Shown: piece after piece, positions 30,124 through 64,000 of the stretch | Position numbering within the stretch: the stretch's first letter is position 1 | Layout: the number at the start of each line of letters is the position of its first letter | NCBI RefSeq assembly: GCF_900176355.1 | Contig: NZ_FWXI01000003.1 | Span: 62,001-126,000, forward strand | From: Sporomusa malonica | GTDB lineage: Bacteria; Bacillota; Negativicutes; Sporomusales; Sporomusaceae | Direction: 5' to 3' | Length of the DNA stretch: 64,000 bases | Notes under the pieces: model-generated | Told to the model about the DNA's origin: nothing | What the model saw: only the letters and a program-made list of their open reading frames with translations | Database searches by the model: none | Translations under genes and position numbers: made by a program

Positions 30124-30145
30124 AGGCATTCCTTCTTTCAGCATA

Positions 30146-33918: not shown

Positions 33919-34896
33919 GATATCTGTGGATTTTACAACCCTCATTCCTGTTAATTTGAATTTTTCCAAGGCTTCTTTAGCAATCGCTGGAAAATCGGGG
34001 CTGCCTTCTGTTGGTTGGACTGGTGACATACAATCTTCAAGGATATAAATTTTACTTTCTTCAAAACCAAGCGAATTATTAGGCATACGCTTTTTCTCTT
34101 TTTGAATGGCTTTATGCATGTCTTCCAAAGTCGCTTTTACACAATGACTCAACGCTTCCCCCGCGACGTAGATTCGATCAAAACTTATCAAATCTGTCAT
34201 CAAATTCTCGTCGAAGTTTCCAACACTCTTCATTGAACCATCTTTAAAGTACAGATTCGGGACTTCAGGCGATAATACGCTGTAATTTTCTGTCCAGGGG
34301 CTTTCCCCTTTTGTGACCCATTTTATTTCCTTGCCGGTCATTAAAGAGTAGAAAAATAACGTTTCATACAGCATTGGAACCACCGCATTATCGACAGAAC
34401 CTTTCTGAGTGTGATACTCCCATGTAATCAGAATGTACTTTTCACTTTTCTCAAGCTGTTCAAGATAGCTTTCAATAAGCTCAATCGGGATCCATTCAGC
34501 ATATGGTCTCCACTTTTTCTCTCTAATATTTTCCAAGGTAATCATCGTAAACGGATCAGGATTTTCATTTTGATCGTTAATCCAAAATCCCGGAGTATGT
34601 ATTTGAAATACTGTATGAGTATCAAGAGACACTCGAATTTCATCAATCAGTTCCAGATTACGGTAGATAAAATCACAAGTTCGTTCTATATCTTTCTCAG
34701 CCCCATCGACATATAGACTTGCACCAGGAATGCAAAATCCCACCTGTGGGTCAATCAAAAAGAGTACTATTTTTTCACTCTTGGGGACAGGTTTAAATTC
34801 CTTACGAAGTTCCCGTACTTCATTTTGAATGATGTCATACCTGGGTAAGTATAAATCCCCGGCACGGTTAGGAGAATAAAAACAAGGCTTTCTCAT
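33904..34896 (-). CDS. Large nicotinamidase/isochorismatase-like cysteine hydrolase
   Basis: A 330-residue protein with the cysteine-hydrolase fold: VLFLIDPQVGFCIPGASL (catalytic Asp), TWEYHTQKG (Lys region differs), and VAGEALSHCVKATLEDM, where Cys is the nucleophile. It is longer than PncA (~200 residues). Its position beside pncB, nadD, nadE and nadK suggests it supplies nicotinate from nicotinamide. It ends inside the promoter region of the choice-of-anchor-I gene. Confidence 0.8.
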   Translation of the reverse strand: MRKPCFYSPNRAGDLYLPRYDIIQNEVRELRKEFKPVPKSEKIVLFLIDPQVGFCIPGASLYVDGAEKDIERTCDFIYRNLELIDEIRVSLDTHTVFQIHTPGFWINDQNENPDPFTMITLENIREKKWRPYAEWIPIELIESYLEQLEKSEKYILITWEYHTQKGSVDNAVVPMLYETLFFYSLMTGKEIKWVTKGESPWTENYSVLSPEVPNLYFKDGSMKSVGNFDENLMTDLISFDRIYVAGEALSHCVKATLEDMHKAIQKEKKRMPNNSLGFEESKIYILEDCMSPVQPTEGSPDFPAIAKEALEKFKLTGMRVVKSTDILTKT

Positions 34897-34936
34897 TTAA
34901 GTCAACCGCCTTTCAAATTATTTCATCGGACTTGCA

Positions 34937-35064
34937 ATAAAGTGAGACTTAGCTTCAGGTGGGGTTAACCCCATCTGAAGTTTAGTCGACCTTATCCAGG
35001 GACTTAGTCGCTCTTAACTCCCTATAGAAGAGGGAGTCTTAGAGCGACTTGGTCATCGGATAAA
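34937..35064 (-). repeat. Palindrome-rich dispersed repeat, copy 2
   Basis: Reverse-strand copy of the unit at 3849-3999, with the same borders (TTTATCCGATGAC, CTAAGTCTCNCTTTAT). Here both hairpins are near-perfect: AGTCGCTCTAAGACTCCC..GGGAGTTAAGAGCGACT, and CTTCAGATGGGGTT-AACCCCACCTGAAG. It lies between pncB and the nicotinamidase-like gene and contributes the last codons and stop of pncB. Confidence 0.75.
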
Positions 35065-36393
35065 TTCCAATTCTGGGTTATTGCATGCAGAGCGACCGAT
35101 TTTAGCTAGATTGTGCCAATCATTACCGACCTTAATTTTAACGATGTCGGCGGTGAAGTCGTTATTAGTTTCGGGTGAGTTTTCGATTAGACTAGACCCT
35201 ACACCATAAAAATCTACAGGTACGTCTTGTTCCTCGAACTCTCTGATTTTCTTTGCGTTAAAGCCCCCGGTTACGAAGATTTTAACATCTTTACAGTATT
35301 TCTTTGCGAGGTCAAGAAACTCTGCCGGAACATTCCATTCCAAATAGGCGTTATCGAGCCCTTCCCGAATGTTCCAGACTAGCTTGGGAGATACTCCCAT
35401 ATCAAGAGCTTTATTCCCGGTCGGAACGATAGACTTATCTCTCATGTTTGCGGAGGTATCTGGGCGCACTCCGAATAATTTATATTGTGCAGCTTCTTCT
35501 AAGTTCCCTTGCTGGTAAAGTTCAAAATATTTATCCCATAGCCTTTTCATAACTTTTTTTGATTCACCAACACAGTCATTATGGAAATCTACTAAGGCAA
35601 TGCGGTTTATTGCGGGATGTAAGAGTCTGGCAAATTGAAACATTGCCTCTGCGGTATCTCCGCAAAAGCTTGCAATAGTAGAGTGTGAAATAGTGCCAAC
35701 TCCACTACCCGACCAATATGCAGCGCCACTATCGGTAGATACAAAAGTACCATTTTTCGTGCCATATTTTTTATTATAAGCATCAATCCCTAACGAATAA
35801 GCGTAACCATGTAACGCCTGGATTTTATATGGAGTGAACCGTGCCGGAAAAAACAGGACTTCTTTGTCTCGAGCCGCTACTAAAGTATTAAATACATTGG
35901 TAGCAATTCTTGTAGGTTCAGCCATCGCTCCTAGCATAACTGTTTCTAATTTTGCGAAGTAACGATGGTTGCCACGCACTTTAATGACAGGAACTACCTT
36001 CTTGGGATCTCCATCATAGGTAACATACGTACCATCTTGTACAGCTTCGACCTCAAGTTCATCATATGTATTTACAAATTCGCCATTTTCGGTATAATAT
36101 CCGGTACATTGTTTCAGAATTGCTAGTGCTTCATCAACCCCGGCAACTACACTAAAGGGGCGGCGGCGAGTAAAGAATTGTATTTCAACTTCCATGTTCC
36201 CGGTATAAATTACTGAGCAATCTAGCTCTTTAAGATCACTTTCTCCTTGGAATTGATACTTCTCAGCAGCTAGTTTTTCGAGTAATTCTACGTTATTACA
36301 AAAATATTTATCAGAGTACCACCCCTGGCGAATTCGTTCTGCATCAATCATAAATAATTCTTCGGGTAATCGTTTGTTATTGAATATGCTCAT
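35053..36393 (-). CDS. pncB: Nicotinate phosphoribosyltransferase
   Basis: A 446-residue NAPRTase converting nicotinate and PRPP to nicotinate mononucleotide. Visible family traits are the N-terminal DAERIRQGWYSDKYF, the VMLGAMAEPTRIATN segment, SGAAYWSGSGVGTISHS and VTGGFNAKKIREFE in the barrel. ATG 36393 overlaps the nadK stop (ATGA). The final three codons and stop (..FIR) lie in the dispersed repeat, so its C-terminus was probably altered by the insertion. Confidence 0.9.
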   Translation of the reverse strand: MSIFNNKRLPEELFMIDAERIRQGWYSDKYFCNNVELLEKLAAEKYQFQGESDLKELDCSVIYTGNMEVEIQFFTRRRPFSVVAGVDEALAILKQCTGYYTENGEFVNTYDELEVEAVQDGTYVTYDGDPKKVVPVIKVRGNHRYFAKLETVMLGAMAEPTRIATNVFNTLVAARDKEVLFFPARFTPYKIQALHGYAYSLGIDAYNKKYGTKNGTFVSTDSGAAYWSGSGVGTISHSTIASFCGDTAEAMFQFARLLHPAINRIALVDFHNDCVGESKKVMKRLWDKYFELYQQGNLEEAAQYKLFGVRPDTSANMRDKSIVPTGNKALDMGVSPKLVWNIREGLDNAYLEWNVPAEFLDLAKKYCKDVKIFVTGGFNAKKIREFEEQDVPVDFYGVGSSLIENSPETNNDFTADIVKIKVGNDWHNLAKIGRSACNNPELEFIR

Positions 36394-37223
36394 GTTAAGT
36401 CACTCCGCTCTTTTTTATCTTTATCCCATTTCATCTTTCGTGATAGAAGTTGATAGAAGGTTTCATTGTTAAGCCGAATCAAATTAGTCATCGTGGAAGC
36501 TTTATTAATGACGATACAATCATCAGTTTCCAACTCAATATCCACTTGACCATCTGCCGAAAGAAGAAGTTCCTTATGATACGATTCGACTACGATTTTG
36601 ATTTCTTTGTTGTCACAGGCTATCATCGACCTTACGTTAAGTAAATGAGAACAGATAGGAGTGATTACGTTGATTCCAAGGTCGGGAGGAATAATTGCAC
36701 CCCCGGCTGATATGGAATACCCGGTACTTCCGGTAGCTGTGCTTATGATAATTCCGTCTGCTGGAAAGTTCCCTACATAATCCCCGCCGATATGAGTTCT
36801 AAGTCTTACTAGCTTAGCTATAGCTCCTTTGACTACTATGTCGTTTAGAGCGGTGCACTGCGCTACATTTCTCTTGTGTCGATATACTCGTGCCTCTAAG
36901 CGTTTTCGTTTATCTATGGTAAATTGACTATTTAAAATTAGAGAAAGCGCCTCAATGACTTTGGGAAGGTTATATTCCATTCCGGTTAAGAAACCTAAAT
37001 GTCCAGTGTTAATCCCGAAGATAGGAATTTCCCCTACATATCTGGCTGTACCTAATACGGTTCCATCTCCCCCGAAAGAAAGAACTACATCTAATTCCGG
37101 GAGGGGATTATTTAAATCCAGTATCTCGACGCTACTTCCCTGTCTCTCGATATGCGTTATGACAGTCTCTATCGCAGAGGTTTTGAGTCCTTTAGAGCGA
37201 TTGAGCATAATGCCTACCTTCAA
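36390..37223 (-). CDS. nadK: NAD kinase
   Basis: A 277-residue NAD kinase with the GGDGT motif (FGGDGTVLGTARYVG, about residues 50-64), NTGHLGFLTG, and the second conserved region ATGSTGYSISAGG. It makes NADP from NAD. TTG 37223 has GAGGTG six bases upstream, preferred over GTG 37232. It sits between the NrtR-like regulator and pncB. Confidence 0.92.
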   Translation of the reverse strand: MKVGIMLNRSKGLKTSAIETVITHIERQGSSVEILDLNNPLPELDVVLSFGGDGTVLGTARYVGEIPIFGINTGHLGFLTGMEYNLPKVIEALSLILNSQFTIDKRKRLEARVYRHKRNVAQCTALNDIVVKGAIAKLVRLRTHIGGDYVGNFPADGIIISTATGSTGYSISAGGAIIPPDLGINVITPICSHLLNVRSMIACDNKEIKIVVESYHKELLLSADGQVDIELETDDCIVINKASTMTNLIRLNNETFYQLLSRKMKWDKDKKERSDLT

Positions 37224-37241
37224 TGAATACACCTCGCTTTA

Positions 37242-38150
37242 CTAATCTTCTACCCAATCGGGATTGAAACGGAACAGTCTAGCAGGCTTATAAGGCTTTC
37301 CGGATTCCCATTCATCTGTCTCTATGACCATTTTTTTCTGTTTCTCCATTTTATCCCGGAAATTTCTGCTATAAATGGCTTTCCCGGTGATAACTTCGTA
37401 AAGCTTCTTTAGTTCCGTTAAAGTAAACAATTCCGGCATAAGAGAAAAAGCAATATCGGTATATTCTACTTTGTTTTTTAATCGCTCAAGAGCATAAAAG
37501 ATAACCGTTGCGTGATCGAAAGCAAGCCCTGAAGGATTATCCAAATATTCAAGGCCGATTTTAGAATTTCTTCCTTCCATCACCTTAGTAACAATTACAG
37601 TATCTTTGATTTCATGCTCGCCATTGACCAAGGAAAGCTCATAAGTTCTTTTGCGAATATAACCTGTTTGGGTTTGAGTTTTTATTTCTTCAAGAAGTGT
37701 GGCTTTTACATCAAACCAACAGGCATCTTCAGCATCATCTCCGGCTTTAACGTTTAGTTTAGAACTATCTACAAGCGCCATATATGAGGTGCTGATAACC
37801 CTTCGGCGAAGGTCACGGTAAACCTTGCCCCAAGTATAAAGCTGTTCCATGTAAACATCAGAAACGTTAGTTTCTTCTTCCAACTCCCGGATTGCCGCTT
37901 TATCAAGATCTTCAAAGTAATTAACAAATCCCCCTGGCAAAGCCCATTTAGCTTTATATGGGTCGGTTACATCAACAACAAGGGGGTCTCCCTTACGTTT
38001 AATAAGAAGAACTCGCAACACTTTATCTGGAACTGACCGAGCTTTGATTTCGACGTCTACAGCTGTTAGGATTATCATATCCACAGTTGTAGACGGTTTT
38101 TTATATTTACTGTCATCGTAGTCTTTAAGAAATTCTTTTTGTTCGATCAT
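37242..38150 (-). CDS. NrtR-like Nudix-domain transcriptional regulator of NAD synthesis
   Basis: A 302-residue protein: a Nudix domain (about residues 25-170, box GGFVNYFEDLDKAAIRELEEE) and a C-terminal winged helix (about residues 225-300, TLTELKKLYEVITGKAIYSRNFRDKM). This is the NrtR architecture, which senses ADP-ribose and represses NAD genes. An active ADP-ribose pyrophosphatase is the alternative since the Nudix box is intact. It is in the operon and two palindromes precede nadD. AGGGGTG precedes ATG 38150. Confidence 0.88.
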   Translation of the reverse strand: MIEQKEFLKDYDDSKYKKPSTTVDMIILTAVDVEIKARSVPDKVLRVLLIKRKGDPLVVDVTDPYKAKWALPGGFVNYFEDLDKAAIRELEEETNVSDVYMEQLYTWGKVYRDLRRRVISTSYMALVDSSKLNVKAGDDAEDACWFDVKATLLEEIKTQTQTGYIRKRTYELSLVNGEHEIKDTVIVTKVMEGRNSKIGLEYLDNPSGLAFDHATVIFYALERLKNKVEYTDIAFSLMPELFTLTELKKLYEVITGKAIYSRNFRDKMEKQKKMVIETDEWESGKPYKPARLFRFNPDWVED

Positions 38151-38154
38151 AATT

Positions 38155-38973
38155 TCACCCCTGTTTTATACTGTCGTAGATTGTTATCGGTGGTTTTGTC
38201 TTGTGATCGCCCTTTAAATAAAAGGCATAAATCTTATCAAATACTTCATCGCAGACTTCTTTTCCGGTAAGAAAGTTCTCAATATCTTGGTAAGTGAACC
38301 CAAGCTCATCTTCATCAGGTCTACAAGGTGTATTATCCAAAAGGTCAGGGGAAGGAGTTTTTTGATAAAATCGTTCGGGAGAATCCAGAGTTTTAAGCAA
38401 TTCTGCACCTTGAAATTTAGTTAATCCAAAGATCGGCAGAATGTCGGCGGCTCCATCTCCGAATTTGGTGTAGAAACGAGTACAATTCTCAGAAGCATGG
38501 TCGGTTCCCAGTACTGCAAGCTCCTGCATTCCAGCTACCGCATATTGAGCCACCATGCGAATCCGTGCTTTTACATTACCCTTATGATAATCTGTAAGAG
38601 GTTCTCCCGTAGCTCGTTCATACTCGATACAAAAAGCATCTACGATAGGTTTGATATTAAGGTTAAACACATTGTCCGGTTTAATAAAATCAATAGCGAG
38701 CTCAACGTCTTCTGCATCTTTCTGCACTCCGTAAGGAAGCTTCATAGCAACAAATCTTTTCCCCTCCAAACTTACGGCTGTTTGCGCTAGTCTGCCCGAC
38801 AGCGTCGAATCTTGCCCGCCAGATAGTCCGAGGACAAATCCATTAAGCCCGGTTTCTCGTAAAAAAGACCGTAAAAATTGGACCCGCTCATAAATTTCCT
38901 GGCTCGGATTAACCTCCGGGAGAGTTTTTACTTCCTCAATTATTCTTTGTTGAATTTCTTTGTTATAAGCCAT
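38155..38973 (-). CDS. nadE: Ammonia-dependent NAD synthetase
   Basis: A 272-residue NadE with the N-type ATP pyrophosphatase motif LSGGQDSTLSG, then LGTDHASENCTRFYTKFGDGAADILP and a C-terminal KRxx-like segment (KTPSPDLLD..CRPDEDELG). It amidates deamido-NAD with ammonia; the glutaminase domain is absent. AAGGAAGG precedes the ATG. The gene follows nadD by 16 bases. Confidence 0.95.
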   Translation of the reverse strand: MAYNKEIQQRIIEEVKTLPEVNPSQEIYERVQFLRSFLRETGLNGFVLGLSGGQDSTLSGRLAQTAVSLEGKRFVAMKLPYGVQKDAEDVELAIDFIKPDNVFNLNIKPIVDAFCIEYERATGEPLTDYHKGNVKARIRMVAQYAVAGMQELAVLGTDHASENCTRFYTKFGDGAADILPIFGLTKFQGAELLKTLDSPERFYQKTPSPDLLDNTPCRPDEDELGFTYQDIENFLTGKEVCDEVFDKIYAFYLKGDHKTKPPITIYDSIKQG

Positions 38974-38989
38974 TTTAATCCTTCCTTTC

Positions 38990-39640
38990 TTATCCTAAAT
39001 TTCGAACATCCAGTTCGTCTAATTTCATAACGCAATCTCCTTTTAAGTAAACATTATTGTTTTTGATATACCAGTACACAGCTTCAGGAAGCAAATACCG
39101 GGGATCTGCACCGCTTTCAAATTCTTCTCTTATGTAACTTGAACTAATTTCATTTACTATGCCTTTATAAATCAGGCTAAAGTTCCTATGATACTTACGA
39201 AGCAGTGGGGTTTTGGCGATTATCTCACCCATAGGAATGTTTTGACGTTCAATTACAATAAATTTAGTAGATTGAATAAATTTTTCTCCATAAGTCCAAT
39301 TAGGCAATGCTGCTAAAAGGTCTGCTCCCATCAGAAAAAACAATTCATCGTCCGGGTATTTTTCCCGAAAATGTTCCATAGTAAAATAGCTATATTGCTT
39401 GCCTGAGATAGCCTTCATTTCGTGATCATCAATCTCAAATATGCTATTTTCAGCCACAGCTAATCTGAGCATTTCCATCCGATGAAGGTCTGCTACCTCG
39501 ATATTCTTATCTGTGCGTTTGGATGAAGAAGGAAGTAAAATAACCTTATCTAATTCTTCTCTTTGCGCAATTGTGTTTCCTGACCAGAGATGCCCATTCG
39601 TTGGAGGATTGAATGAAGAACCATAAATACCTATTCGCAT
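38990..39640 (-). CDS. nadD: Nicotinate-nucleotide adenylyltransferase
   Basis: A 216-residue NadD-type nucleotidyltransferase with GIYGSSFNPPTNGHL (nucleotide-binding HxGH-like site), FFLMGADLLAALPNWTYGE and ISSSYIREEFESGADPRYLLPEAVYWYI. It converts nicotinate mononucleotide to deamido-NAD. First gene of the NAD operon; the promoter overlaps palindromic operators. Confidence 0.93.
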   Translation of the reverse strand: MRIGIYGSSFNPPTNGHLWSGNTIAQREELDKVILLPSSSKRTDKNIEVADLHRMEMLRLAVAENSIFEIDDHEMKAISGKQYSYFTMEHFREKYPDDELFFLMGADLLAALPNWTYGEKFIQSTKFIVIERQNIPMGEIIAKTPLLRKYHRNFSLIYKGIVNEISSSYIREEFESGADPRYLLPEAVYWYIKNNNVYLKGDCVMKLDELDVRNLG

Positions 39641-52173: not shown

Positions 52174-52280
52174 TAATAGTAGTTTTATTTTAGTATTTAT
52201 GCACTTCATGTTCATCTCATATTGACTTACCTTTTTTTTCAATATATAATTATTTGACAATGCTATTAAGGAGATATTTT

Positions 52281-52928
52281 ATGGGCAAAGAAAATTTGGA
52301 TACATTAAAGGATCAAGTTTATGATGCTTTGTTTTCTGATATTATCAATGGAGTATATCCTGCCGATACAATCCTGACTGAGAAATTTTTAATGGAAAAA
52401 TATGGGGTTAGCCGTGCACCAATACGCGAAGCACTTACCCAGTTGACTGGAACCCATATCCTGTCCAGCATTCCCAGACAGGGATATAAAATTTTTCAGC
52501 CAAGTGAACAACAGTTGTTAGAAGTCATTAAATTCCGTTCTGCTTTGGAGTGTTCTTTTTTGGAAAGCTATTGTACCTATATCGATGAATCCCGGATCAA
52601 AGAACTGAGAAACACCTGTGTGGACTACATCAACTGTCCGACTAATGATTTCATGTCTCACTGGCACTACAACTGCCAGTTTCATCTGAAATTGTTCTCC
52701 ATTTATGGCAACCATTACGCTTATAAACTCTTGGAAGATGCTTTGAACATTCAGACTATCTTTTTCGTACAAAAAAAACATTCCGCCACCATGGATTTGC
52801 ACCTGGCTTTAGTTGACTATCTGGAAAAAGGCGAGATTACAACGGCTGTGACCATTTTAAAGGCAGATATTGAAAACCTGCTACTTCTGGGCACTGCTCC
52901 TACCCCAGTTGACCCAATCAGAAAATGA
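52281..52928 (+). CDS. GntR-family (FadR/FCD-type) regulator
   Basis: A 215-residue protein: an N-terminal GntR winged helix (DQVYDALFSDIINGVYPADTILTEKFLMEKYGVSRAPIREAL) and a helical FCD-like ligand domain with SALECSFLE and LHLALVDYLEKGE. FCD regulators respond to organic acids. ATG 52281 has AAGGAGA upstream. It is divergent from the ATC-hydrolase unit, with matching operators between. Confidence 0.9.
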   Translation: MGKENLDTLKDQVYDALFSDIINGVYPADTILTEKFLMEKYGVSRAPIREALTQLTGTHILSSIPRQGYKIFQPSEQQLLEVIKFRSALECSFLESYCTYIDESRIKELRNTCVDYINCPTNDFMSHWHYNCQFHLKLFSIYGNHYAYKLLEDALNIQTIFFVQKKHSATMDLHLALVDYLEKGEITTAVTILKADIENLLLLGTAPTPVDPIRK

Positions 52929-53011: not shown

Positions 53012-55354
53012 TTAGTTTTCAGCGTAGTAGTTTATTAGACACCCAGCCAAGATTATATCGCGATCGTCTTTAGAAAGATTCTCTAGTTTCAGTTCTAGAT
53101 CAGTTTTACCTTGTTCATTTAGTACATATGCTTTTATTCTATCTGTCCCGTTTACAATACTTAGACGAATATTGGGGATAAAAATGTAATCATCCACTTT
53201 CAACTTATTGACCTCTTCACGATTCATAGTAAAAGGAATCATTCCCCAATTTATGACATTGCTGCGGTAGCGTTTTGTGGCATATTCAATGGCAATATTA
53301 GCATCACCACCCAGGACCTTCTGACAAGAAGCCGCCTGCTCCCTCGCCGAACCGTCACCCGGCTTTGCCGCATATATTACACTGCCTAGCCCAGTATTTT
53401 TAATTAGTTCCAGCAATTCCTCTGCGTTTAATTGATCCCCCGAAAAGATCGCTCGGAAGGTATCTATTAATCCGTGCAACTCCCCATTCTTCACACGCTT
53501 TTGCCGCTCTATCTCCAGTTGCTGCACAGCTTTAGCCCTGCCAACATACTCCGGATCTTTTCTCGATAGCGTAAACTCCGCTAATTTGAATGGGTTTGAT
53601 CGATAGGATGATGTTTCCCCCGATGGAATCAGTTCATCAGTGGTTGTTACTGGATCGTGAATAACAGAAGCTAATTTAATCAGTAAGTTTTCCGGAAGAG
53701 GTCTAATCTCAGGCCAATTGGCAATGCCGGGACCATATTTCAGTTTATCCTCCGCCTTAGCCTCGCCAAAGCCTTGGTATACACGGTTATCATAAGACTG
53801 TTTGTCGAATTTATAGGATACAGGAGTTTCTTCATAATCTATCTCAGTCGCAGGTGTCAATAAGCCGCCATGTATCGCCGTTGCTGCAATAGACCGAGCA
53901 TCCATCAAAGCCACTGAAGCTATCTGGCCATTTCCCGGTTTTGAGCCCTCTCTATTGGGGAAATTACGTGTTGCATGTCTGATACTCAAAGCATTATTAG
54001 CTGGCGTGTCGCCTGCTCCAAAACAAGGGCCGCAGAACGAAGTCTTAATGATCGTACCGGCACTAATCATTTTTTCAATAGAGCCATTCCTCATCAACTC
54101 AGCGAAAACTGGCTGACTTGCCGGATAAGCGCTCAAAGAAAAATCACCATTGCCAATGGATTTTCCATCTACGATTTTCGCAACTGCCGTAAGGTTTTCA
54201 AAAGTCCCCCCTGAGCATCCGACTACAATCCCTTGGTCAACCATTAGACGTCCATTGACCAGTTTATCGGTCAAATTGAAGTTCACATTGGGGTTTTCTA
54301 ACTGCCTCTTACCTTCAATCTCGACTTCACGTAAAATATCAACAGCATTACGATTAAGTTCAGAAATTGAATAAACATTTCTCGGGTGAAACGGAAGGGC
54401 AATCATGGGAACAATGCGGTTTAAATCGACTTTTACCATGCTGTCATAGTAGCATACTGCGCCTGGTTCCAACTTACTGTAGTCTTTGCCCCGCCTGTGA
54501 ATAGCAAAGTATTCAGCAACCTTCTCATCAGTTTGCCATATAGAGGATAAACACGTAGTTTCAGTAGTCATAACATCTATACCGTTACGGAAATCCACAC
54601 TAAGATTATTTACACCTGGTCCAACAAATTCCATTACTTTATTTTTTACAAAACCATCTTTAAAGACAGCTCTGATAATAGCGAGAGCAACATCTTGCGG
54701 TCCGACGCCATTAACGGGCTGACCTTCTAGGTAAATCCCTACGACCTCTGGCCTAGGTGCATTATAGGTATGATTTAATAACTGTTTGACCAACTCAGGA
54801 CCACCCTCACCAATAGCCATGGTCCCCAGAGCTCCATAGCGGGTATGACTATCTGAGCCCAAAATCATCTTGCCACATCCGGCCATAGTCTCCCGCATAT
54901 ACTGATGTATAACAGCCAGATGGGCCGGTACATAAATACCGCCGTACTTTTTAGCTGCAGACAAGCCAAAAGCATGGTCATCTTCATTAATGGTACCGCC
55001 AACAGCACATAGACTGTTATGACAATTAGTCAAAACATAAGGTACTGGAAATTCGTTAAGCCCGCTGGCAATGGCCGTCTGGATAATACCAACAAAAGTT
55101 ATATCGTGAGAAGCGAGGGCATCAAATTTTAATTTCAGGTTACGTTTATCCTTTGAGGTATTATGTGCTTCCATAATCCTGCTGGTGATGGTGTTATTTC
55201 TTGCCACTTCCTTCGTTATCTCTGCTTCGGCTATTGGCTGAAGGTCTTCCCGGCGTAGCATGTCATTAACCTTGTCTACACCTAATTGATCTGCATCCTC
55301 TATAATGAGTTTTCCCCTCAGGAGATATACGCCATTTTCAACTAACTCAACCAT
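53012..55354 (-). CDS. Aconitase-superfamily hydratase 1 (single-chain, ~780 residues)
   Basis: A 780-residue single-chain aconitase-fold enzyme. Fe-S ligands are Cys in VVGCSGG and CxxC in [16 protein letters not shown] and ITKE/PHNTS-like segments lie in the N-terminal part. The swivel domain at the C-terminus has [13 protein letters not shown] and [15 protein letters not shown]. It is a paralogue of the 56619-58937 gene. Unlike ordinary aconitase (~640 residues), its class is annotated simply as 'hydratase' and substrates are unknown. Last gene of the operon. Confidence 0.85.
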
Positions 55355-55387
55355 ATTTCCACTCCCTATAAAATTACATTTATAAAA

Positions 55388-56530
55388 CTACAAAACAGGT
55401 ATAAATATTTCACCCTTCATGATTCTTCGTGCCGTACGCTCCATACCAACTCGAGATACGCTTTCCCCGTCCGCGGCGACAGTAACAAGTACTTCCACAA
55501 TTCCTTCCGAGTGGCCGATTCTTACCATGCGCTCTTTTACCCCTGGCAGGAAGCCGGCAATTTGATTGGGAACAGTCCCCGGCAAGAGGGCTGCTGCTGC
55601 TAAATTATATAAACCGCTGGCCGGGCAGGTACGATGCAATTTCCACATTGATACAGCCTTGACTAGGATATCGACGTCTTCTTTTTTTATATGCTCGCCC
55701 CCAGTAGTTACATAGTCCTGGGCGGGAGCAACGACCGCTATTTTGGGGACATTTGGCTTATTCTGCCTGGCATCCTGTTCGTCCGCTGCCATACCGGCAA
55801 GTACTGCCACTTTATCACGGATTAAATTAAGTTCATCCAGCATTGCCTGATTCGTGGCAACTTCTTTGTGCGATTCGGCGCCGATTAAGCCTACATCCTT
55901 ACCCGCTAAAAGGATAAAAGGATTTATTAGGTCTGAGAAAGTTACCTCATAGGCGGCTTTCTTTGATTTCACCTCAGACTTAGGTCCGAGAAGCAGTTGT
56001 TTTCCCGTCATTTCACCCCCAGGGCTCATGATTGAGACCCGGAACATCGCCCCTGGTTTTACTACACCAGGCATTTGGTAATCCCCGCTGACCTTAGCCT
56101 TGCCGTTTACAACTGGTATTTCCATGTGCAGTATTTTTTTGATGTTGGTATTATAAACATAAACGTCTGCCATCTCAGCAGAAGAGTCAACAGTTACTAA
56201 GCCCTCATCCACAGCAAAAGCGCCGGCAGCCACCATCAAATTACCACAAGTTCCTTTTTCATCGACGACAGCCTCGGCAACCCCAAGTTGAACAAATGTC
56301 CAATCGACATCTGCCCCCTCCTTAGAAGATGGCGCGATTATCCCCACCTTGCTTGTTGAAGATGTAGTACCACCCAACCCATTAACCTGCGAAGGATTAT
56401 AGCAATCGATACCTTCCAGAAAAATCTTATTGCGCATCTGGATATCTGCCGGCAAATCCTTCTTATGAAAGAACAATCCCCGACTAGTTCCACCTCTATA
56501 TACACTACAAAGAACTGAAAACTGTGGCAT
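55388..56530 (-). CDS. PrpF-family cis-trans / double-bond isomerase
   Basis: A 380-residue protein with duplicated diaminopimelate-epimerase fold, having VYRGGTSRGLFFHKKDLP, a Cys in KGTCGNLMVAAGAFA and SMWKLHRTCPASGLYNLAAA. Relatives are 2-methylaconitate isomerase, 3-methylitaconate isomerase and 4-oxalomesaconate tautomerase. ATG 56530 has AGGAGG seven bases upstream. It lies between the two hydratases, so it probably shifts or isomerises the double bond of their product. Confidence 0.87.
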   Translation of the reverse strand: MPQFSVLCSVYRGGTSRGLFFHKKDLPADIQMRNKIFLEGIDCYNPSQVNGLGGTTSSTSKVGIIAPSSKEGADVDWTFVQLGVAEAVVDEKGTCGNLMVAAGAFAVDEGLVTVDSSAEMADVYVYNTNIKKILHMEIPVVNGKAKVSGDYQMPGVVKPGAMFRVSIMSPGGEMTGKQLLLGPKSEVKSKKAAYEVTFSDLINPFILLAGKDVGLIGAESHKEVATNQAMLDELNLIRDKVAVLAGMAADEQDARQNKPNVPKIAVVAPAQDYVTTGGEHIKKEDVDILVKAVSMWKLHRTCPASGLYNLAAAALLPGTVPNQIAGFLPGVKERMVRIGHSEGIVEVLVTVAADGESVSRVGMERTARRIMKGEIFIPVL

Positions 56531-56618
56531 TAAAATTCCTCCTAACGTTCCACAATAGAACCGTCTTCGCAAACCAAGGAATTAGTCCGAGAATTTAGAA
56601 AGCTTGCTAGACCGATCA

Positions 56619-58937
56619 TTAGGTGTTACTTCTGTAATAATTAATAAGGCAGCCGGCCAATATCGTCTCTCTTTCTTCTTTTGACAGGTTCTCTAATTTG
56701 AGTTCAATTTGCGAGATACTATTTACCCTTATTATAAAAGCCTGAACTTTTTCCGCACCGTCGGCTACAGCTTTTCTGATCCCAGGGATGTGAATTAAAT
56801 CATCTACAAAAAACTTAGTAAGTGTTTCCCGTTCAACAGTAAACGGAACAAGGCCCCAATTTATCAAATTGCTACGATATCGCTTTGTGGCATATTCATG
56901 CACTACATTAGCCTGCCCACCCAACATTTTTTGGCTAGATGCCGCCTGTTCCCTAGCCGACCCATCCCCTGGCTTAACAGCAACTATCAGACTGCCAATC
57001 GCGGTATTTGGCAAACAATCTCGAAACTGCTTTGGCAAGCCGATTTCGTCAACGATTTGCTCAAAAATTTGACCGCCGTTATCCTGCTCTAACGCGCTTA
57101 AACGCTTTGCTTCAAACTTCTTAACGTCGTTAGACCTTCCTACATAAGCAGGCTCTTTGCGACATAACGTAAATTCAGCCAGCTTTTGAGGATTAGAACG
57201 ATAGGTTGATGCTTCGCCGGAGGGGATAAGTTCATCTGTAGTTGTAATCGGGTCTTTTAGAATAGCCGATACTTTGAGCAGAAGATTCTCTGCAAGCGTT
57301 GGTATCGGTGGCCAACCAGAAATATTAGGACCAGTCTTTAACTCTGTTTCAGGCTTAGAGTTACCAAATCCCTGATAAACCCGATTACCATAGACATTTT
57401 GATCAAACTTATAATTGCCTTTGCTATAGGTAACCTCGACCTCAGTTGCAGGAGTCAATACCCCACCATTTAAAGACGTAGCCGCAATAGATCTAGCATC
57501 CATCAACGCGCTAGACGCAAGTTGGCCATTGGTTGGGCTTGAGCCCTCTCTATGCTTAAAATTCCTTGTTACGTGACGAATACTCAAGCTGCCATGCGAA
57601 GGAATATCCCCAAAACCGAAGCATGGTCCACAAAATGCAGGCTTAATGGCTGCTCCGGCTGTCATTAAGATCTCAATAGCCCTGTGTCTTAATAAATCAA
57701 GGTAAATCGGCTGACTTGCCGGATAAACACTAAGGGAGAAATAACCATTGCCGATTGACTTATTACCTAAAATGTCAGCCATTGCCATGACATTTTCAAA
57801 CATACCGCCAGAACACCCTGCAACAACGCCTTGTTCCACTTTCAGGCGGCCATTTACCAGTTTGTCAGTAAGCCGTAGTACTAAGTTCGGATTATCTAAT
57901 TGTTTTTGTGCTTCAACTTCAACTTGTCTCAAGATATCTGAGCCGTTTTGGTTTAACTCAGCTATAGACCAAACATTACTGGGGTGAAAGGGTAGAGCAA
58001 TCATCGGTTCTATTTCACTCAGATTTACCTTAACTAGCCCATCATAATAACTTACTTCGGCTGGATCTAATCTGGTATATGCTTCAGAGCGTCCGTGGAT
58101 TATAAAATACTCCTTAACCTTCTCATCTGTACGCCAAATGCTCGATAAGCATGTTGTCTCAGTGGTCATGACATCGATACCATTCCTGAAGTCAATCGAA
58201 AGTTTTGATACACCAGGTCCGACAAATTCCATGACCTTGTTGGTCACGAAGCCATTATCATAAACCGCTTTGATTATGGCTAAAGCAACGTCTTGCGAAC
58301 CAACACCTGGCTTCGGTTCGCCAGCTAGATAAATAGCGATGACCTCAGGGTAGGATATATCGTATGTTTTTTTAAGCATTTGCTTAACGATTTCCGGGCT
58401 GCCTTCGCCGACCCCCATAGTTCCGAGCGGCCCATAGCGGGTATGACTGTCCACCGTAAGTATCATTTTGCCACAGCCTGTCATCATTTCTCTCATATAC
58501 TGGTGAATGACTGCCTGGTTCGGCGGTACAAAAGTACCGCCATACTTTTGGGCTGCAGTAAAGCCGAAGGCATGATCATCCTCAGCTATCGTCCCGCCGA
58601 TCGCACATAAACTGTTATGACAATTGGTCATTATAAACGGCACAGGAAATTCGTTTATACCACCAAGGGCAGCAGTTTGTACTATCCCAACGTAGGTCAG
58701 ATCATGTGAGGCCAAAGCATCAAAGCGGAGTTTTAAATTACGCCAGTCATCTGATTGGTTGTGACTGATCAAAATTTGATAAGCAATAGTGCCTTTTCTA
58801 GCCTTATCAATTGAAAGAGCTTTATCTGATGAGGGTTCAAGTCCCTCACGTATTAAACAGCAATTAATCTCGTCTACGTTTTTTAAGATAACTTGACCTT
58901 TGAAAAGAAAGACTCCTCCATGTAATAACTCAATCAT
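56619..58937 (-). CDS. Aconitase-superfamily hydratase 2 (single-chain, ~770 residues)
   Basis: A 772-residue paralogue of the 53012 enzyme, with the same architecture and order: TVDSHTRYGPLG, VVAGCSGGMF, FCGPCFGFGD and the C-terminal swivel with [14 protein letters not shown] and KRYRSNLINWGLVPF. The two paralogues are clearly similar in every block. Two hydratases around an isomerase suggest dehydration, isomerisation and rehydration of one substrate, or two branches. It is 88 bases upstream of the PrpF gene. Confidence 0.85.
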   Translation of the reverse strand: MIELLHGGVFLFKGQVILKNVDEINCCLIREGLEPSSDKALSIDKARKGTIAYQILISHNQSDDWRNLKLRFDALASHDLTYVGIVQTAALGGINEFPVPFIMTNCHNSLCAIGGTIAEDDHAFGFTAAQKYGGTFVPPNQAVIHQYMREMMTGCGKMILTVDSHTRYGPLGTMGVGEGSPEIVKQMLKKTYDISYPEVIAIYLAGEPKPGVGSQDVALAIIKAVYDNGFVTNKVMEFVGPGVSKLSIDFRNGIDVMTTETTCLSSIWRTDEKVKEYFIIHGRSEAYTRLDPAEVSYYDGLVKVNLSEIEPMIALPFHPSNVWSIAELNQNGSDILRQVEVEAQKQLDNPNLVLRLTDKLVNGRLKVEQGVVAGCSGGMFENVMAMADILGNKSIGNGYFSLSVYPASQPIYLDLLRHRAIEILMTAGAAIKPAFCGPCFGFGDIPSHGSLSIRHVTRNFKHREGSSPTNGQLASSALMDARSIAATSLNGGVLTPATEVEVTYSKGNYKFDQNVYGNRVYQGFGNSKPETELKTGPNISGWPPIPTLAENLLLKVSAILKDPITTTDELIPSGEASTYRSNPQKLAEFTLCRKEPAYVGRSNDVKKFEAKRLSALEQDNGGQIFEQIVDEIGLPKQFRDCLPNTAIGSLIVAVKPGDGSAREQAASSQKMLGGQANVVHEYATKRYRSNLINWGLVPFTVERETLTKFFVDDLIHIPGIRKAVADGAEKVQAFIIRVNSISQIELKLENLSKEERETILAGCLINYYRSNT

Positions 58938-59025
58938 TTCACTTTTTGCTCCTTCAAAATGATAACTTTTATAAACGATTGCATGTTAAACAACATCACG
59001 TTATCTACGCTTTTACAACGACCGA

Positions 59026-59646
59026 TTACTTTTCAGGAAGTAGATTTTCAATATATTTAAGTGCCGCTTCCCTATTTACCAAAGCACTTTCAGCCCGAAC
59101 TTGATCCTTCTTCATTTTTGTCTCAGCCGCTTCCAAGACCTGTTCCGCTCTTTCTTTAGGGATCACCAATACGCCGTTTGCGTCCCCCACGATAATATCG
59201 CCAGGATGAATAGTTACGCCTCCGCAGGATATAGGTACATTGATCTCCCCCATCCCGATTTTTTTACTGCAGGCGAGCGTCGCACCCAAACAAAATACCG
59301 GATAGTTCATTTCCTTTATACTAAGAATATCTCGTACCGTTCCATCGGCTACTACGCCGCCGAACCCTAAGGTTCGAGCTAAGCCAATAACAAAGTCCCC
59401 GGCAAATGACCTATATCTGGCCCCCTCAGCATCCACCACCAATATATCTCCCGGCTTTCCCGATTTCATTGCTTGTAGTACCATCATGTTGTCGCCTGAC
59501 GGTACCTTTACGGTGATTGCTTGCCCGCAAATTTTATATTCTTCTTTTAGCGGCTTGATGGCTGTATTCAAATGATTGAACCCTTGCATAGCATCGGATA
59601 TACAAGTGGTTGAAATTGATCGCAGTTCATCAATAAGTGCTTTCAT
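59026..59646 (-). CDS. RraA-like class II pyruvate aldolase
   Basis: A 206-residue RraA-fold protein with the intact D-x20-R-D catalytic motif of 4-carboxy-4-hydroxy-2-oxoadipate / HMG aldolases (Asp in FAGDFVIGL, then ADGTVRD). RNase-regulator RraA proteins lack this operon context, so a metal-dependent retro-aldol cleavage yielding pyruvate or oxaloacetate is the best inference. ATG 59646 follows GGAGGATAATG; the preceding ATG is possible. A dehydrogenase gene lies upstream. Confidence 0.82.
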   Translation of the reverse strand: MKALIDELRSISTTCISDAMQGFNHLNTAIKPLKEEYKICGQAITVKVPSGDNMMVLQAMKSGKPGDILVVDAEGARYRSFAGDFVIGLARTLGFGGVVADGTVRDILSIKEMNYPVFCLGATLACSKKIGMGEINVPISCGGVTIHPGDIIVGDANGVLVIPKERAEQVLEAAETKMKKDQVRAESALVNREAALKYIENLLPEK

Positions 59647-59745
59647 CATTATCCTCCATACATAACTGTTCAAATGGACATCACTGTGTTAAATCTTAGG
59701 CCATCTAGTTTTGCAAAAGAAAACTAAATGGCCTTTTCTTAGTAA

Positions 59746-60708
59746 TTAATCAATCCGGGCAATTGACAATGGTGCCTGACCAGCAGCCACTCTTTGGATG
59801 TTTTGCCAGGCAAAACTTATGCGGCGATTCCAGCCCTCACACGTATGCCCAGCTGTATGAGGAGATACGACAACGTTTTCTAGCTTCAAGAACGGGTCAT
59901 CTGCTGGCGCAGGTTCTTTAAAGAAGACATCAAGACCAGCACCGGCAATCCGTTTGGACTGCAGAGCTTCAAAGAACGCCTCTTGGTCAACGAGTTCGGC
60001 CCGGCAGGTATTAATGATGACTGAGGTGGGTTTCATAAGTGAAAACTCACGTTTGCCTACAAGACCCCAAGTGTCCTTAAGCAGCGGTGCATGTATCGAA
60101 ATAATATCCGCGGTACTCACCAATTCTTCTAAAGAAGCCCTACGCGCTCCTAACTCTGTTTCAATATCTGTGGCAGGAAATGGATCATAATATATGATAT
60201 CTGTCTCAAATGCCTTAAGTCTCCGGGCTACTTTGCGGCCAATGTTTCCTGCCCCAATAATGCCGACCGTTTTACCGGCTACTTCAAAAGTGTCGAAGCC
60301 ATTGATTGCTTGACGCCATTTTCCCTCACGAACAGACTTATCACAATTAATCAGTCTCTTATAAAGAGCCAGCAATAACGCTATGCTGTGTTCTGCTACC
60401 GCCCAAGAATTTGCACCACCATTAGTAGCTACCGGAATATTAAGTTCTTTCGCGGTGTTCATATCAATCTTATCATAGCCGGCAGTCAAGGACTGGATAA
60501 GCTTGAGTGATTTGGCTTCCTGTAGAACTCTGCCGGAAATAACTCCTGGGTGAAGCATCACATATTCTACGTCCTGCATAAGGTTAATTTTTTCCTCATC
60601 GCTAAGCTTACTTGACGCATAGGATATCTCAAAACCGTCCGGGGCCATTTCGCAGAATATATCCACTACTCGTTGGTCATTTCCATTTAAAAAAAGTACT
60701 TTACCCAT
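59746..60708 (-). CDS. D-2-hydroxyacid dehydrogenase (NAD-dependent)
   Basis: A 320-residue protein of the phosphoglycerate/D-2-hydroxyacid dehydrogenase family. GAGNIGRKVA is the NAD site, Arg in NTCRAELVD and His in VSPHTAGHTC are the catalytic residues, and Glu in FKEPAP sits as expected. ATG 60708 has GGAGG four bases upstream. In this operon it would oxidise a 2-hydroxy acid made by hydration to the 2-oxo acid needed by the aldolase. Confidence 0.88.
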   Translation of the reverse strand: MGKVLFLNGNDQRVVDIFCEMAPDGFEISYASSKLSDEEKINLMQDVEYVMLHPGVISGRVLQEAKSLKLIQSLTAGYDKIDMNTAKELNIPVATNGGANSWAVAEHSIALLLALYKRLINCDKSVREGKWRQAINGFDTFEVAGKTVGIIGAGNIGRKVARRLKAFETDIIYYDPFPATDIETELGARRASLEELVSTADIISIHAPLLKDTWGLVGKREFSLMKPTSVIINTCRAELVDQEAFFEALQSKRIAGAGLDVFFKEPAPADDPFLKLENVVVSPHTAGHTCEGWNRRISFAWQNIQRVAAGQAPLSIARID

Positions 60709-60752
60709 ATAGCCTCCATATTTCATCTAATATTTTAATGTTCAAAGCCAGA

Positions 60753-62678
60753 CTAATTATTTCTTAATTTAATCCAGTTAAGGCGCCCACCAACACGAAT
60801 AATATCAAGTTCATCTTGGGATAGCGGAGTTTCAACCGCTACCTTAACGTCCTTCGTATGGTTGTGAACAAAATATTGAGCTCCCTGTTTTAAGCTTGTT
60901 GTATCAATTGACAACGAATCGCCTTGGTCGAACAGGTCAATATCATCCTCGTTAATCAGGATAAACGGAATCAACCCAAAGTTTACTAAATTAGCAAGAT
61001 GAATACGTGCAAAGCTTTTTGCAATCACAGCCCTGACTCCTAGATATCTTGGGGCTAGTGCCGCTTGCTCTCTGCTTGATCCCTGCCCATAATTATGACC
61101 AGCTACAATAAAGCCGCTTCCCGCTTCTTTAGCCCTTTCAGGAAAAGATTCATCTACTACTTTAAACACAAACTTAGATATCTCGGGTATGTTACAACGG
61201 ATGGGCAGGAAGTGGGCCCCTGCGGGTACTATGTGATCTGTGGTGATGTCATCGCCGACCTTAATAAGTGTTTTACCTGTAAGCTGATCGGGTACGGCTT
61301 CTATTTCAGGCAACGGTTTAATGTTAGGACCTCGCCGAATTGGAGTATCATCAAAACTCTCTTTAGGCCGCAAGAACATACTTTCATCAATAATAAATTT
61401 TGTAGGCATGTCATATTTCCAGATAGACAGATCCAAATCACGGGGGTCGGTTATTTTGCCTGTTATTGCCGAAGCCGCAGCGACTTCAGGACTTACTAAA
61501 TACACACTTGCACATTCGGTGCCGCAGCGTCCAATAAAGTTTCTCGGACCAGTTCTAAGTGATTTTCCATGAGTAGGAGGTGCAAAGCCCATGCCATTGC
61601 AAGCACCACAAAACATCTCCATAATTCGTACACCAGAGCAGACTAAATTGTCTATAACGCCTCGCCGAATAGCTTCTAGCATTACTTGTCGACTGCCGCA
61701 ATACAGCGCTGTGTCGACATTACCATGTACATGCTTTCCTTTTAAGATATGGGCAATTGACATGACATCCTGTAAGGAAGAATTAGTGCATCCGCCAAAC
61801 ATTACCTGATCAATATCAATTCCAGCCGCTTCGCGAACAGGCACAACGTTATCAGGTTGGTGCGGCAGAGCAATTAACGGCTCTAGTTCAGATAAGTTAA
61901 TTTCTATCACCTTGTCGTAAACAGCATCATCATCGGCAGATATTGGCTTCCACTCATGCTCTCTGCCTTGTGCCTTAAACCAGTATCGGGTAATTTCATC
62001 ACTTGGGAATACGGATGTTGTGGCACCGACTTCTGCACCCATATTACAGATAGTCGCACGCTCCGTAACATTTAAAGACTTTATACCAGGGCCAGTATAT
62101 TCAAGTATTGTGTTGAGACCGCCCTTAACTGAAATTCGTCTTAGAATCTCTAAAATGACATTTTTAGCTGATACAAACGGCGGTAACTCACCAGCAAGCA
62201 CCACTTTGATAATTTCAGGCATTTTAAAGTAAAACGGCTCTCCAGCCATTGACATTGCAATATCTAGACCGCCTGCACCTATGGCAAGCATGCCAACCCC
62301 GCCGGCGTTGACCGTATGTGAATCGCTGCCAAGCAGACTCTTTCCTGGCTTAGCAAAGCGCTCCAGATGCAGTTGATGACAAATCCCACTGGCTGGTTTG
62401 GTACACAGAATGCCGAATTTACTTGTAATATCCATTAAAAATCTGTGATCATCTGGATTTTTGTAATCAGCCTGCAAAATGTTGTGATCAATATAGCTTA
62501 CCGACAAATCTGTTTTTATCCGCTTCAATCCAATGGCTTCAAATTCTAAGTAAGCCATAACGCCCGTGACGTCATGCGTTAAAGTTTGAGAGATATGAAT
62601 TCCAATCCGGTTACCTTTCTTCATTTCCCCGTCAACCAGCGAAGCAGCAATTAGTTTTTCCGCAACAGTAAGTCCCAT
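60753..62678 (-). CDS. Aconitate hydratase family protein
   Basis: A 641-residue aconitase with GSDSHTVNAGG, the Fe-S Cys in FGGCTNSS and MFCGACNGMG, and a swivel domain with GQGSSREQAALAPRYLG and RIHLANLVNFGLIPF. It matches typical bacterial aconitase in length and is separate from the longer hydratases. It may convert citrate or a homologue (homocitrate, methylcitrate). First gene of the operon behind the sigma54 promoter; ATG 62678 follows GGGAGGTAAATG. Confidence 0.88.
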   Translation of the reverse strand: MGLTVAEKLIAASLVDGEMKKGNRIGIHISQTLTHDVTGVMAYLEFEAIGLKRIKTDLSVSYIDHNILQADYKNPDDHRFLMDITSKFGILCTKPASGICHQLHLERFAKPGKSLLGSDSHTVNAGGVGMLAIGAGGLDIAMSMAGEPFYFKMPEIIKVVLAGELPPFVSAKNVILEILRRISVKGGLNTILEYTGPGIKSLNVTERATICNMGAEVGATTSVFPSDEITRYWFKAQGREHEWKPISADDDAVYDKVIEINLSELEPLIALPHQPDNVVPVREAAGIDIDQVMFGGCTNSSLQDVMSIAHILKGKHVHGNVDTALYCGSRQVMLEAIRRGVIDNLVCSGVRIMEMFCGACNGMGFAPPTHGKSLRTGPRNFIGRCGTECASVYLVSPEVAAASAITGKITDPRDLDLSIWKYDMPTKFIIDESMFLRPKESFDDTPIRRGPNIKPLPEIEAVPDQLTGKTLIKVGDDITTDHIVPAGAHFLPIRCNIPEISKFVFKVVDESFPERAKEAGSGFIVAGHNYGQGSSREQAALAPRYLGVRAVIAKSFARIHLANLVNFGLIPFILINEDDIDLFDQGDSLSIDTTSLKQGAQYFVHNHTKDVKVAVETPLSQDELDIIRVGGRLNWIKLRNN

Positions 62679-62757
62679 CATTTACCTCCCATGTTGTGTT
62701 TAATAAGTATTCACATCTTCCAGTAGTAATTATTTAGTGCTCGTAAATACTTATTTT

Positions 62758-62772
62758 GCAATTAGCGTGCCA
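62758..62772 (-). promoter_or_regulatory. Sigma54 (-24/-12) promoter of the hydratase operon
   Basis: On the minus strand, TGGCAC-N5-TTGC matches the sigma54 consensus exactly. Transcription would start near 62746, about 70 bases before the aconitase start. The adjacent sigma54 activator gene points to it. Confidence 0.85.
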
Positions 62773-63008: not shown

Positions 63009-64000
63009 CTATGCATTTATTCCTAATCGCTTCATTTTACGCCATAGCGTAGAGCGGCTTATCTTCATAAGTTCGGCAACATCGCCAATCTTCCCGTTAC
63101 AACTTTCTAGTGCCGCAACTATCTCCTTGGTCTCTTTTATATCCTGACTAGAAGCATTACTATTATCTATGTTCAGTATTTTGCAGATAAAAGCTGCACT
63201 AATCGTATTTCGCTGAGACAATGCAACAATTCGCTCTATTACATTCCGCAATTCGCGGATATTTCCTGGCCACGTATACTCTTCTAAGACTTTCGATGCA
63301 GCCTTACTCAGTTTCAGCTTATTTTGTGAGATACTATTTAAAAACTGAATGGCGTACAGTGAAATATCTTTCTTCCGCTCGCACAAGGCAGGAATTTTTA
63401 AATGTAACACATTTAAGCGATAATACAGATCTTCTCTAAATTTATTTTCAGACACAAGCTGTTGTAAGTTCTTATTTGTTGCGGCAATTACCCTTACATC
63501 TACTGGGATTACCCTATCACTCCCCAGCCTCATAACAGACCTTTCCTGCAAAACTCTTAGCAGCCTGCCTTGGTTTATATAATCCATTTCCCCAATTTCA
63601 TCTAGAAATATTGTTCCGGTGTGCGCTACTTCAAACAAACCAGTTTTTCCTTCCTTACTTGCCCCTGTAAAAGCGCCGCCAACGTAGCCAAATAGCTCAC
63701 TTTCCAAAAGTTGCGCTGGTAAGGCCGCACAATTCACTGCTACGAAGGGCCCTCTCGCCCGCTTACTATTATTATGAATACTCTGAGCAAATACTTCTTT
63801 TCCAACACCAGTTTCTCCGATAATTAGCACATTGGCATCTGTCACTGAGTAACTTTTGGCTTCATTGATCGCTGAGCATATTGCTGAGCTAGAACCATAA
63901 ATATCTTTAAATGAAAAGGTTGCTACATGACCTTTGGAATAAACCTCTTTTCTGATTCGGGCCTCCATCATTTGTATCTTAGTGATATCCTGAAAAGTAA
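63009..64000 (-). CDS. Sigma54-dependent activator (PAS-type, right end cut)
   Basis: The frame runs past the right edge: before MMEARIRKE it reads TFQDITKIQ, the end of a PAS domain, so the gene continues beyond 64000. Visible are the AAA+ core (Walker [15 protein letters not shown] loop, Walker B FLDEIGEM) and a C-terminal Fis-type helix-turn-helix ([21 protein letters not shown]). It most likely activates the adjacent -24/-12 promoter, sensing the pathway substrate through its PAS part. Confidence 0.93.

Follow-up and report, generated by a model that had tools for sequence, protein, structure and literature searches.

The window analysed here, a 64,000-nucleotide stretch of a Sporomusa malonica contig (NZ_FWXI01000003.1), contains on its minus strand between positions 53012 and 62681 a six-gene operon encoding an aconitase (AcnA), a dehydrogenase, an RraA-type protein, a hydratase (HydA), a PrpF-family protein and a second hydratase (HydB), preceded by a sigma-54 promoter box and a gene for a sigma-54-dependent activator (Table 1). 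The six proteins were assigned to families by profile matches in Pfam and NCBIfam, and the intergenic gaps within the set are 26-93 bp. All six open reading frames (ORFs) are intact and occur in the order given in the initial annotation, which had listed two single-chain hydratases. This description holds for HydA and HydB, and the aconitase is also a single-chain enzyme, so that the operon encodes three aconitase-family proteins.

Table 1. Features of the six-gene operon and its upstream region (window coordinates; aa, amino acids).
Feature	Position	Strand	Remarks
Sigma-54-dependent activator, C-terminal part	63009..63998	-	Full gene L164:2010-3869, 619 aa
Sigma-54 (-24/-12) box TGGCACGCTAATTGC	62758..62772	-	5' end 91 bp ahead of aconitase ORF
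AcnA, single-chain aconitase, PRK07229 family, 642 aa	60753..62681	-	Distinct 'cluster' clade
D-2-hydroxyacid dehydrogenase, 321 aa	59746..60711	-	Rossmann motif, Asp after beta-2, R/E/H positions
RraA-type protein, class II pyruvate aldolase / oxaloacetate decarboxylase superfamily	59026..59649	-	D-x20-R-D
HydA, YbhJ/PRK11413-type single-chain aconitase-family hydratase, 772 aa	56619..58937	-	Divergent clade of 3
PrpF-family isomerase, 380 aa	55388..56530	-	Closest solved relative by sequence: 3-methylitaconate isomerase
HydB, YbhJ/PRK11413-type hydratase, 780 aa	53012..55354	-	Conventional member, probably aconitase

The operon is real and partly conserved. A search with the RraA-type protein at an E-value of 1e-60 across 380 genomes of the class Negativicutes identified close relatives in seven of them, the window's own genome (G000) and genomes G003, G004, G012, G015, G048 and G127. 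A cluster-type AcnA (at least 60% identity to that of the window) shares the RraA locus in all seven, in G003 only across a contig break, the two contigs having an end overlap of 385 bp (95.6%) that falls within the dehydrogenase gene. A cluster-type dehydrogenase (63-100%) is found in five of the seven loci, and an RR54-type activator in six including the window's own, to which the others are 65-84% identical. The order AcnA-dehydrogenase-RraA-HydA is common to the window and G012, and to G003 across the contig break; in G012 the window order continues to PrpF, with a CitM gene ahead and a second AcnA gene after the set. HydA adjoins HydB in G003, and the PrpF ortholog of that genome (91%) lies elsewhere, together with genes for an aconitase, a LigI-like amidohydrolase and a DASS-type protein. 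In G310 two ORFs separate a dehydrogenase gene (57%) from a HydB-type gene, and the same stretch has the genes HydB-PrpF-DASS-LigI-like. The distant genome G376 has the arrangement AcnA-PrpF-LigI-like-DASS, with RraA-like genes, a lactonase and another AcnA nearby. This recurring co-location supports the earlier proposal that the genes belong to one pathway.

The exact promoter TGGCAC-N5-TTGC reported in the initial annotation is present and is the sole exact match within the 64-kb window. Shuffled sequence contained a mean of 0.24 exact boxes per 64 kb, with at least one box in 21 of 100 shuffles, and an exact match on its own is weak evidence. The box is convincing because it starts 91 bp ahead of the aconitase ORF and is found again in front of orthologous genes: exact boxes precede the AcnA genes of the window, G127 and G003 and the CitM gene of G048, and boxes with one mismatch precede AcnA and CitM in G012, CitM and RraA in G015, and an AcnA gene in G018. 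The background over the loci examined was 0.001 exact boxes and 0.016 boxes with at most one mismatch per 360 bp. One-mismatch boxes about 280 bp ahead of HydB-type genes (L036, L043) were not counted as promoters. The upstream activator, whose sensor half falls beyond the window end, was completed from the genome and consists of PrpR_N, PAS, sigma54 AAA+ and Fis HTH domains. It thus has the three domains (PrpR_N, sigma54 AAA+ and Fis HTH) of a PrpR-type sigma-54 activator, and it scores below the cut-off of the propionate PrpR equivalog TIGR02329 (359.8 against 499.2 bits). PrpR_N was detected in all five activators scanned (window, G003, G012, G127 and G048), the G015 activator being outside the scan. 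Salmonella PrpR reportedly responds to 2-methylcitrate. A sigma-54 gene is present in the window's own genome, at C17. The recurring box, the adjacent PrpR-type activator and this sigma-54 gene support the control suggested earlier, and the six-gene operon is probably sigma-54-controlled.

AcnA scores well above the cut-off of the PRK07229 aconitate hydratase profile NF005558 (877.2 against 612 bits). Compared with a list of what we take to be the active-site residues (pig aconitase numbering), it keeps the Fe-S cysteines and the catalytic motifs, save for a His at the position of pig Gln72. We considered whether the Gln72-to-His change in AcnA, HydA and HydB might point to a new substrate; the idea was dropped, as L143, which is not in the cluster clade, has the change too. 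A single clade with support 100/100 unites the 11 cluster-type AcnA rows; the group was chosen by identity and its monophyly is therefore partly built in. HydA and HydB both pass the YbhJ/PRK11413 profile NF008503 (1173.6 and 1282.2 bits, cut-off 641), and all three proteins are far from the AcnD equivalog TIGR02333 (AcnA 144.9, HydA 54.5 and HydB 57.3 bits, cut-off 1419.85).

Four genes of the window's own genome exceed the YbhJ cut-off. One of them, at C27 and 69% identical to HydB, comes after an HMGL/HCS_D2 (Re-citrate-synthase-like) gene and an isocitrate/isopropylmalate dehydrogenase-family gene, a trio that is also present in G033 and, by BLAST, in the Sporomusaceae genome L062; another, at C18, lies alongside TctABC and CitDEF-like genes. 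We infer that YbhJ proteins are aconitases, and HydB is probably an aconitase because its family neighbours Re-citrate-synthase-like and isocitrate-dehydrogenase-family genes; it departs from the YbhJ family at 6 near-invariant columns. The initial annotation had left the type of both hydratases unassigned, which no longer applies to HydB; of the two, only HydA looks specialised. HydA was searched for in one genome per species (84,980 species; records near the window's genome may be omitted). Among the best 80 of 404 confirmed stretches, only L055 encodes a protein that matches HydA best at high identity (79%); at the other loci among these 80 (at most 66% to HydA) HydB is the better match, except at one with 55%. 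Another HydA is present in G012 (80%). In an alignment of 73 YbhJ sequences, the three HydA proteins deviate at 22-24 of 283 otherwise near-invariant columns, compared to 16 for the next highest sequence and a median of 4. The commonest residue of the HydA clade differs in 20 such columns, all three proteins agreeing in 16 of the 20, and several deviations are found beside the DSHT motif, the Fe-S cysteines and the R580-equivalent.

The RraA-type protein matches PF03737 (153.4 bits). Its D-x20-R-D motif is intact as described earlier, and D86, R107 and D108 are invariant in all nine aligned rows. It scores below the profile of the citroylformate (CHA) aldolase LigK (TIGR02798; 124.8 bits, cut-off 304.5), and its closest solved relative is the 4-carboxy-4-hydroxy-2-oxoadipate aldolase 3noj. 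To judge from family and molecule names, oxaloacetate decarboxylases belong to the same superfamily. The best reading of the protein is a putative metal-dependent aldolase, with oxaloacetate decarboxylation as the main alternative. The dehydrogenase has an alternative start at 60726, and GGAGG precedes the 60711 start. It retains the Rossmann motif, the Asp after beta-2 and the R/E/H positions, which we take to have their usual roles in this family; the Asp suggests use of NAD. PrpF is below the cut-offs both for methylaconitate isomerase (TIGR02334; 235.9 against 440.55 bits) and for 4-oxalomesaconate tautomerase (GalD/LigU, NF033377; 228.2 against 440 bits). In the window's own genome, a further PrpF-type gene lies close to a pair of short ORFs that resemble aconitases (33%) and perhaps encode a two-subunit hydratase. 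The chemistry of isomerisation, oxidation and cleavage put forward in the initial annotation is consistent with these protein families.

Which acid enters such a pathway is suggested by the neighbours of the genes in other genomes. A citrate-type transporter (CitM, TctABC or DASS) is encoded in five of the seven RraA loci, and lactonase-type proteins of three different folds are encoded in three of them (G048, G127 and G015). The G048 locus contains a LigI-like amidohydrolase and a beta-propeller lactonase-family protein (PF10282). The metallo-beta-lactamase protein of G127 matches lactonase profiles of NCBIfam with scores far under cut-off, and G015 encodes a relative of it (67%). The LigI-like protein of G003 is 70% identical to that of G048; both were tested, and their closest solved relatives are 2-pyrone-4,6-dicarboxylate hydrolases, followed by the amidohydrolase 4mup. 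Outside the class, a plasmid of Priestia megaterium, a member of an aerobic genus, encodes an RraA protein (56%) with AcnA, a lactonase, two citrate:proton symporters and dehydrogenases of the Ldh and isocitrate/isopropylmalate families, and a Niallia taxi plasmid encodes RraA (53%) with CitM-like and Iso_dh genes, no aconitase being seen in that stretch. A citrate-like hydroxytricarboxylate, or the lactone of one, is therefore the probable substrate: the loci of relatives add citrate-type transporters, citrate lyase and lactonases, and on the Priestia plasmid RraA is found with citrate symporters, a lactonase and an aconitase. The shared theme is a citrate-like acid, an aconitase, RraA and a 2-hydroxyacid dehydrogenase of varying fold, joined in several genomes by an enzyme of a lactone-opening type. 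The neighbours in relatives thus favour citrate-like tricarboxylates and lactones over dicarboxylates of the methylitaconate type, to whose routes the initial annotation had drawn a parallel.

Several related clusters were seen alongside. A separate related module at L179, L180, L175 and L181 combines RraA (38-40%) with dehydrogenases (35-37%) and LigI-like amidohydrolases; at L179 (G127) it additionally has 2-oxoacid:ferredoxin oxidoreductase subunits. Three genes near RraA in G127 and G129 had been considered as a two-subunit fumarase, and Pfam identified those of G127 as such oxidoreductase subunits (the scan covered G127 only; the G129 counterparts are of equal length). Likewise, a gene at C18 (L036:11096-11905) considered as a pathway gene is a methyltransferase. 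AcnA (47-51%) and PrpF (35-37%) genes stand together in the anaerobes of L141, L146, L148, L149 and L151, with a DASS-type transporter in four of the five; these clusters look like assimilation sets for trans-aconitate or a similar acid. Tetronate-type kinase and class II aldolase genes lie near HydB, CitM, RraA or LigI-like genes at L038:3904-10016, L161:2504-9747, L172 and L173.

From the observed gene content, protein families, recurring box and activator, and co-location, we propose a route in which the ligand of the activator, the reactions, their order and the substrate are all predicted. The PrpR-type activator would sense a citrate-like acid and switch on the operon with sigma-54. After import, and lactone opening where needed, AcnA, HydA, HydB and PrpF would shift the tricarboxylate's double bond and hydroxyl group, leaving a secondary 2-hydroxyl (R) beside a carboxylate. 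The D-2-hydroxyacid dehydrogenase would oxidise this hydroxyl, and the 4-hydroxy-2-oxo acid so formed would be split by the RraA-type metal aldolase into a C3/C4 oxo acid and a second oxo acid. We give this general sequence of isomerisation, oxidation and cleavage about an even chance. With hydroxycitrate, it would run hydroxycitrate <-> hydroxyaconitate <-> 1,3-dihydroxypropane-1,2,3-tricarboxylate -> 2-oxo-3-carboxy-4-hydroxyglutarate -> oxaloacetate + glyoxylate, with pyruvate + glyoxylate as alternative end products after loss of CO2. Hydroxycitrate forms lactones, and relatives perhaps take it up in that form. It is preferred here because it is citrate-like, lactone-forming, abundant in some plants and has a known enzymology without genes, and it would be the likeliest substrate, a tentative choice well below even odds. 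According to one review, plants contain hydroxycitrate, the compound is a substrate of a Micrococcus enzyme and of isocitrate dehydrogenase, and plant enzymes for such acids are unstudied genetically; a title cited there presents Hibiscus acid as a lactone (PMC4945632). The full explanation, with activator, operon and hydroxycitrate route as set out, falls slightly short of an even chance in our estimate. That the operon serves fermentation of hydroxycitrate, or of a closely similar 2-hydroxylated tricarboxylate together with its lactone, with HydA as a new specificity in the aconitase superfamily, is possible and rather doubtful.

A number of observations weigh against this explanation. Measured along the sequence, the deviations of HydA are not enriched around active-site residues (Fisher p 0.82), and RraA and the dehydrogenase are below every NCBIfam cut-off listed for them. 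The dehydrogenase is missing from the G004 and G048 loci, the G004 locus also lacks the activator and, as scanned, a sigma-54 box, and the G127 genome is without any PrpF match. Cluster-type AcnA occurs without RraA in the stretches examined at L140, L043 and L145 (the last at a contig end), and the only match to RraA besides the window's own in 398 genomes of the phylum, in G531 (52%), stands among unrelated genes. In G004, G018 and G048 the set is joined by genes of the HpcH/HpaI family, which could share or take the aldolase role. Citrate lyase genes, superfluous for the proposed route, are present in three of the seven loci (G015, G127 and G004), and the window operon itself has neither a lactonase nor, by Pfam, a transporter among its six genes, and so lacks the transporter of TarAB-type isomerase operons.

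The citrate lyase genes would find a place in an ordinary tricarboxylate fermentation (of isocitrate, its lactone, trans-aconitate or citrate), the chief alternative, which we regard as unlikely. PrpF would convert trans- to cis-aconitate, the aconitases would form citrate, a citrate lyase encoded elsewhere would cleave it, RraA would be a soluble oxaloacetate decarboxylase, in line with the decarboxylases of its superfamily, and the dehydrogenase would form D-lactate for redox balance. CitE-type genes are found in all seven genomes, all under the curated cut-off, and E. coli ybhHIJ joins a PrpF-type protein and a permease to YbhJ. One study describes TarA/TbrA, of the PrpF superfamily, as aconitate isomerases (PMC11495376). 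However, the window operon has no citrate lyase, three aconitases, one of a rare divergent clade, would be redundant, the other PrpF-type gene of the genome could serve aconitate, and an oxaloacetate decarboxylase would be of no obvious use to the Priestia set.

The LigI-like genes raise a second, improbable alternative, a C7 route that resembles the lower part of the protocatechuate 4,5-cleavage/gallate pathway and starts from 2-pyrone-4,6-dicarboxylate or 4-oxalomesaconate. After isomerisation by PrpF, an aconitase-type enzyme would replace LigJ/GalB to give citroylformate, which RraA would cleave to pyruvate and oxaloacetate. Such genes adjoin both the G003 PrpF ortholog and the distant PrpF of G376 (49%), and the solved structures closest to the amidohydrolases of G003 and G048 and to RraA are enzymes of this chemistry. 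Yet the route has no place for the dehydrogenase, a LigI-like match at E 1e-70 was not found in the window's own genome, PrpF reaches only 228 of the 440 bits for 4-oxalomesaconate tautomerase, 4mup scores almost as high as LigI for the G048 protein, and the usual sources of 4-oxalomesaconate need oxygen. Least probable is a loose aggregate under a shared promoter that serves several acids, with RraA in a role other than aldolase; the mixing of genes among relatives (PrpF elsewhere in G003 and absent from G127, the dehydrogenase absent from two loci) would fit it, and the AcnA-dehydrogenase-RraA-HydA order kept in the window, G012 and G003 speaks against it.

No described cluster with this six-gene set was found in openly licensed PMC literature (subscription papers were outside the search), and within this scope the initial statement that no such pathway has been described stands. 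To our knowledge none of the TarA/TbrA, ybhHIJ, AcnD-PrpF, methylitaconate isomerase and LigIUJK systems has the whole set, each sharing parts of it. The protocatechuate and gallate pathways (LigI-LigU-LigJ-LigK; GalD-GalB-GalC) share a PrpF-superfamily isomerase and an RraA-superfamily aldolase acting on a hydroxytricarboxylate, and in some relatives of the operon a LigI-like protein. Unlike them, the operon has aconitase-type hydratases in place of LigJ/GalB, a D-2-hydroxyacid dehydrogenase and no ring-cleaving gene among the six, and the host lineage, judged from named relatives, is anaerobic. The trans-aconitate systems TarAB/TbrAB and E. coli ybhHIJ share a PrpF-family protein and, in ybhHIJ, a YbhJ hydratase, whereas the operon lacks a transporter, adds the dehydrogenase, RraA and two more aconitase-family enzymes, and is under PrpR-type/sigma-54 control instead of TarR. 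The PrpR-regulated AcnD-PrpF form of the 2-methylcitrate cycle shares PrpF, an aconitase-family enzyme and a sigma-54 activator of the PrpR_N type; however, the six genes include no methylcitrate synthase or lyase, RraA stands in place of PrpB, and the AcnD cut-off is far off. The branch of nicotinate fermentation with 3-methylitaconate isomerase and dimethylmalate dehydratase shares the closest solved relative of PrpF and an aconitase-family hydratase, but the hydratases of the operon are single-chain and no gene of dimethylmalate-lyase type is among the six. For anaerobes, the operon would offer a concrete set of genes by which an unusual tricarboxylic acid could be catabolised, and it would link to a pathway YbhJ and RraA-like proteins, which in annotated records are mostly named 'hydratase' or 'RraA family protein'. 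It may also show aconitase-type enzymes where aerobic routes use LigJ/GalB hydratases.

Beside the operon, the minus strand of the window carries at 48728-51960 genes for an MFS organic-acid transporter, a serine-dehydratase-alpha/CyuA-like protein and a small protein, with a GntR/FCD regulator at 52254-52928 divergent from them. The MFS protein could be the operon's transporter. Two further loci in the window were noted by eye. At 25995-27278 and 28372-30177 lie an arsenite-methyltransferase-like protein, whose C-terminal part is GNAT-like, and an adjoining duplicated ArsA-like ATPase; a MarR-like gene lies ahead of the methyltransferase-like gene, and the short ORF L164:8317-8697 resembles part of the methyltransferase-like protein. 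At 33904-39640 a run of NAD-salvage genes encodes nicotinamidase-, nicotinate phosphoribosyltransferase-, NAD kinase-, NUDIX regulator-, NadE- and NadD-like proteins.

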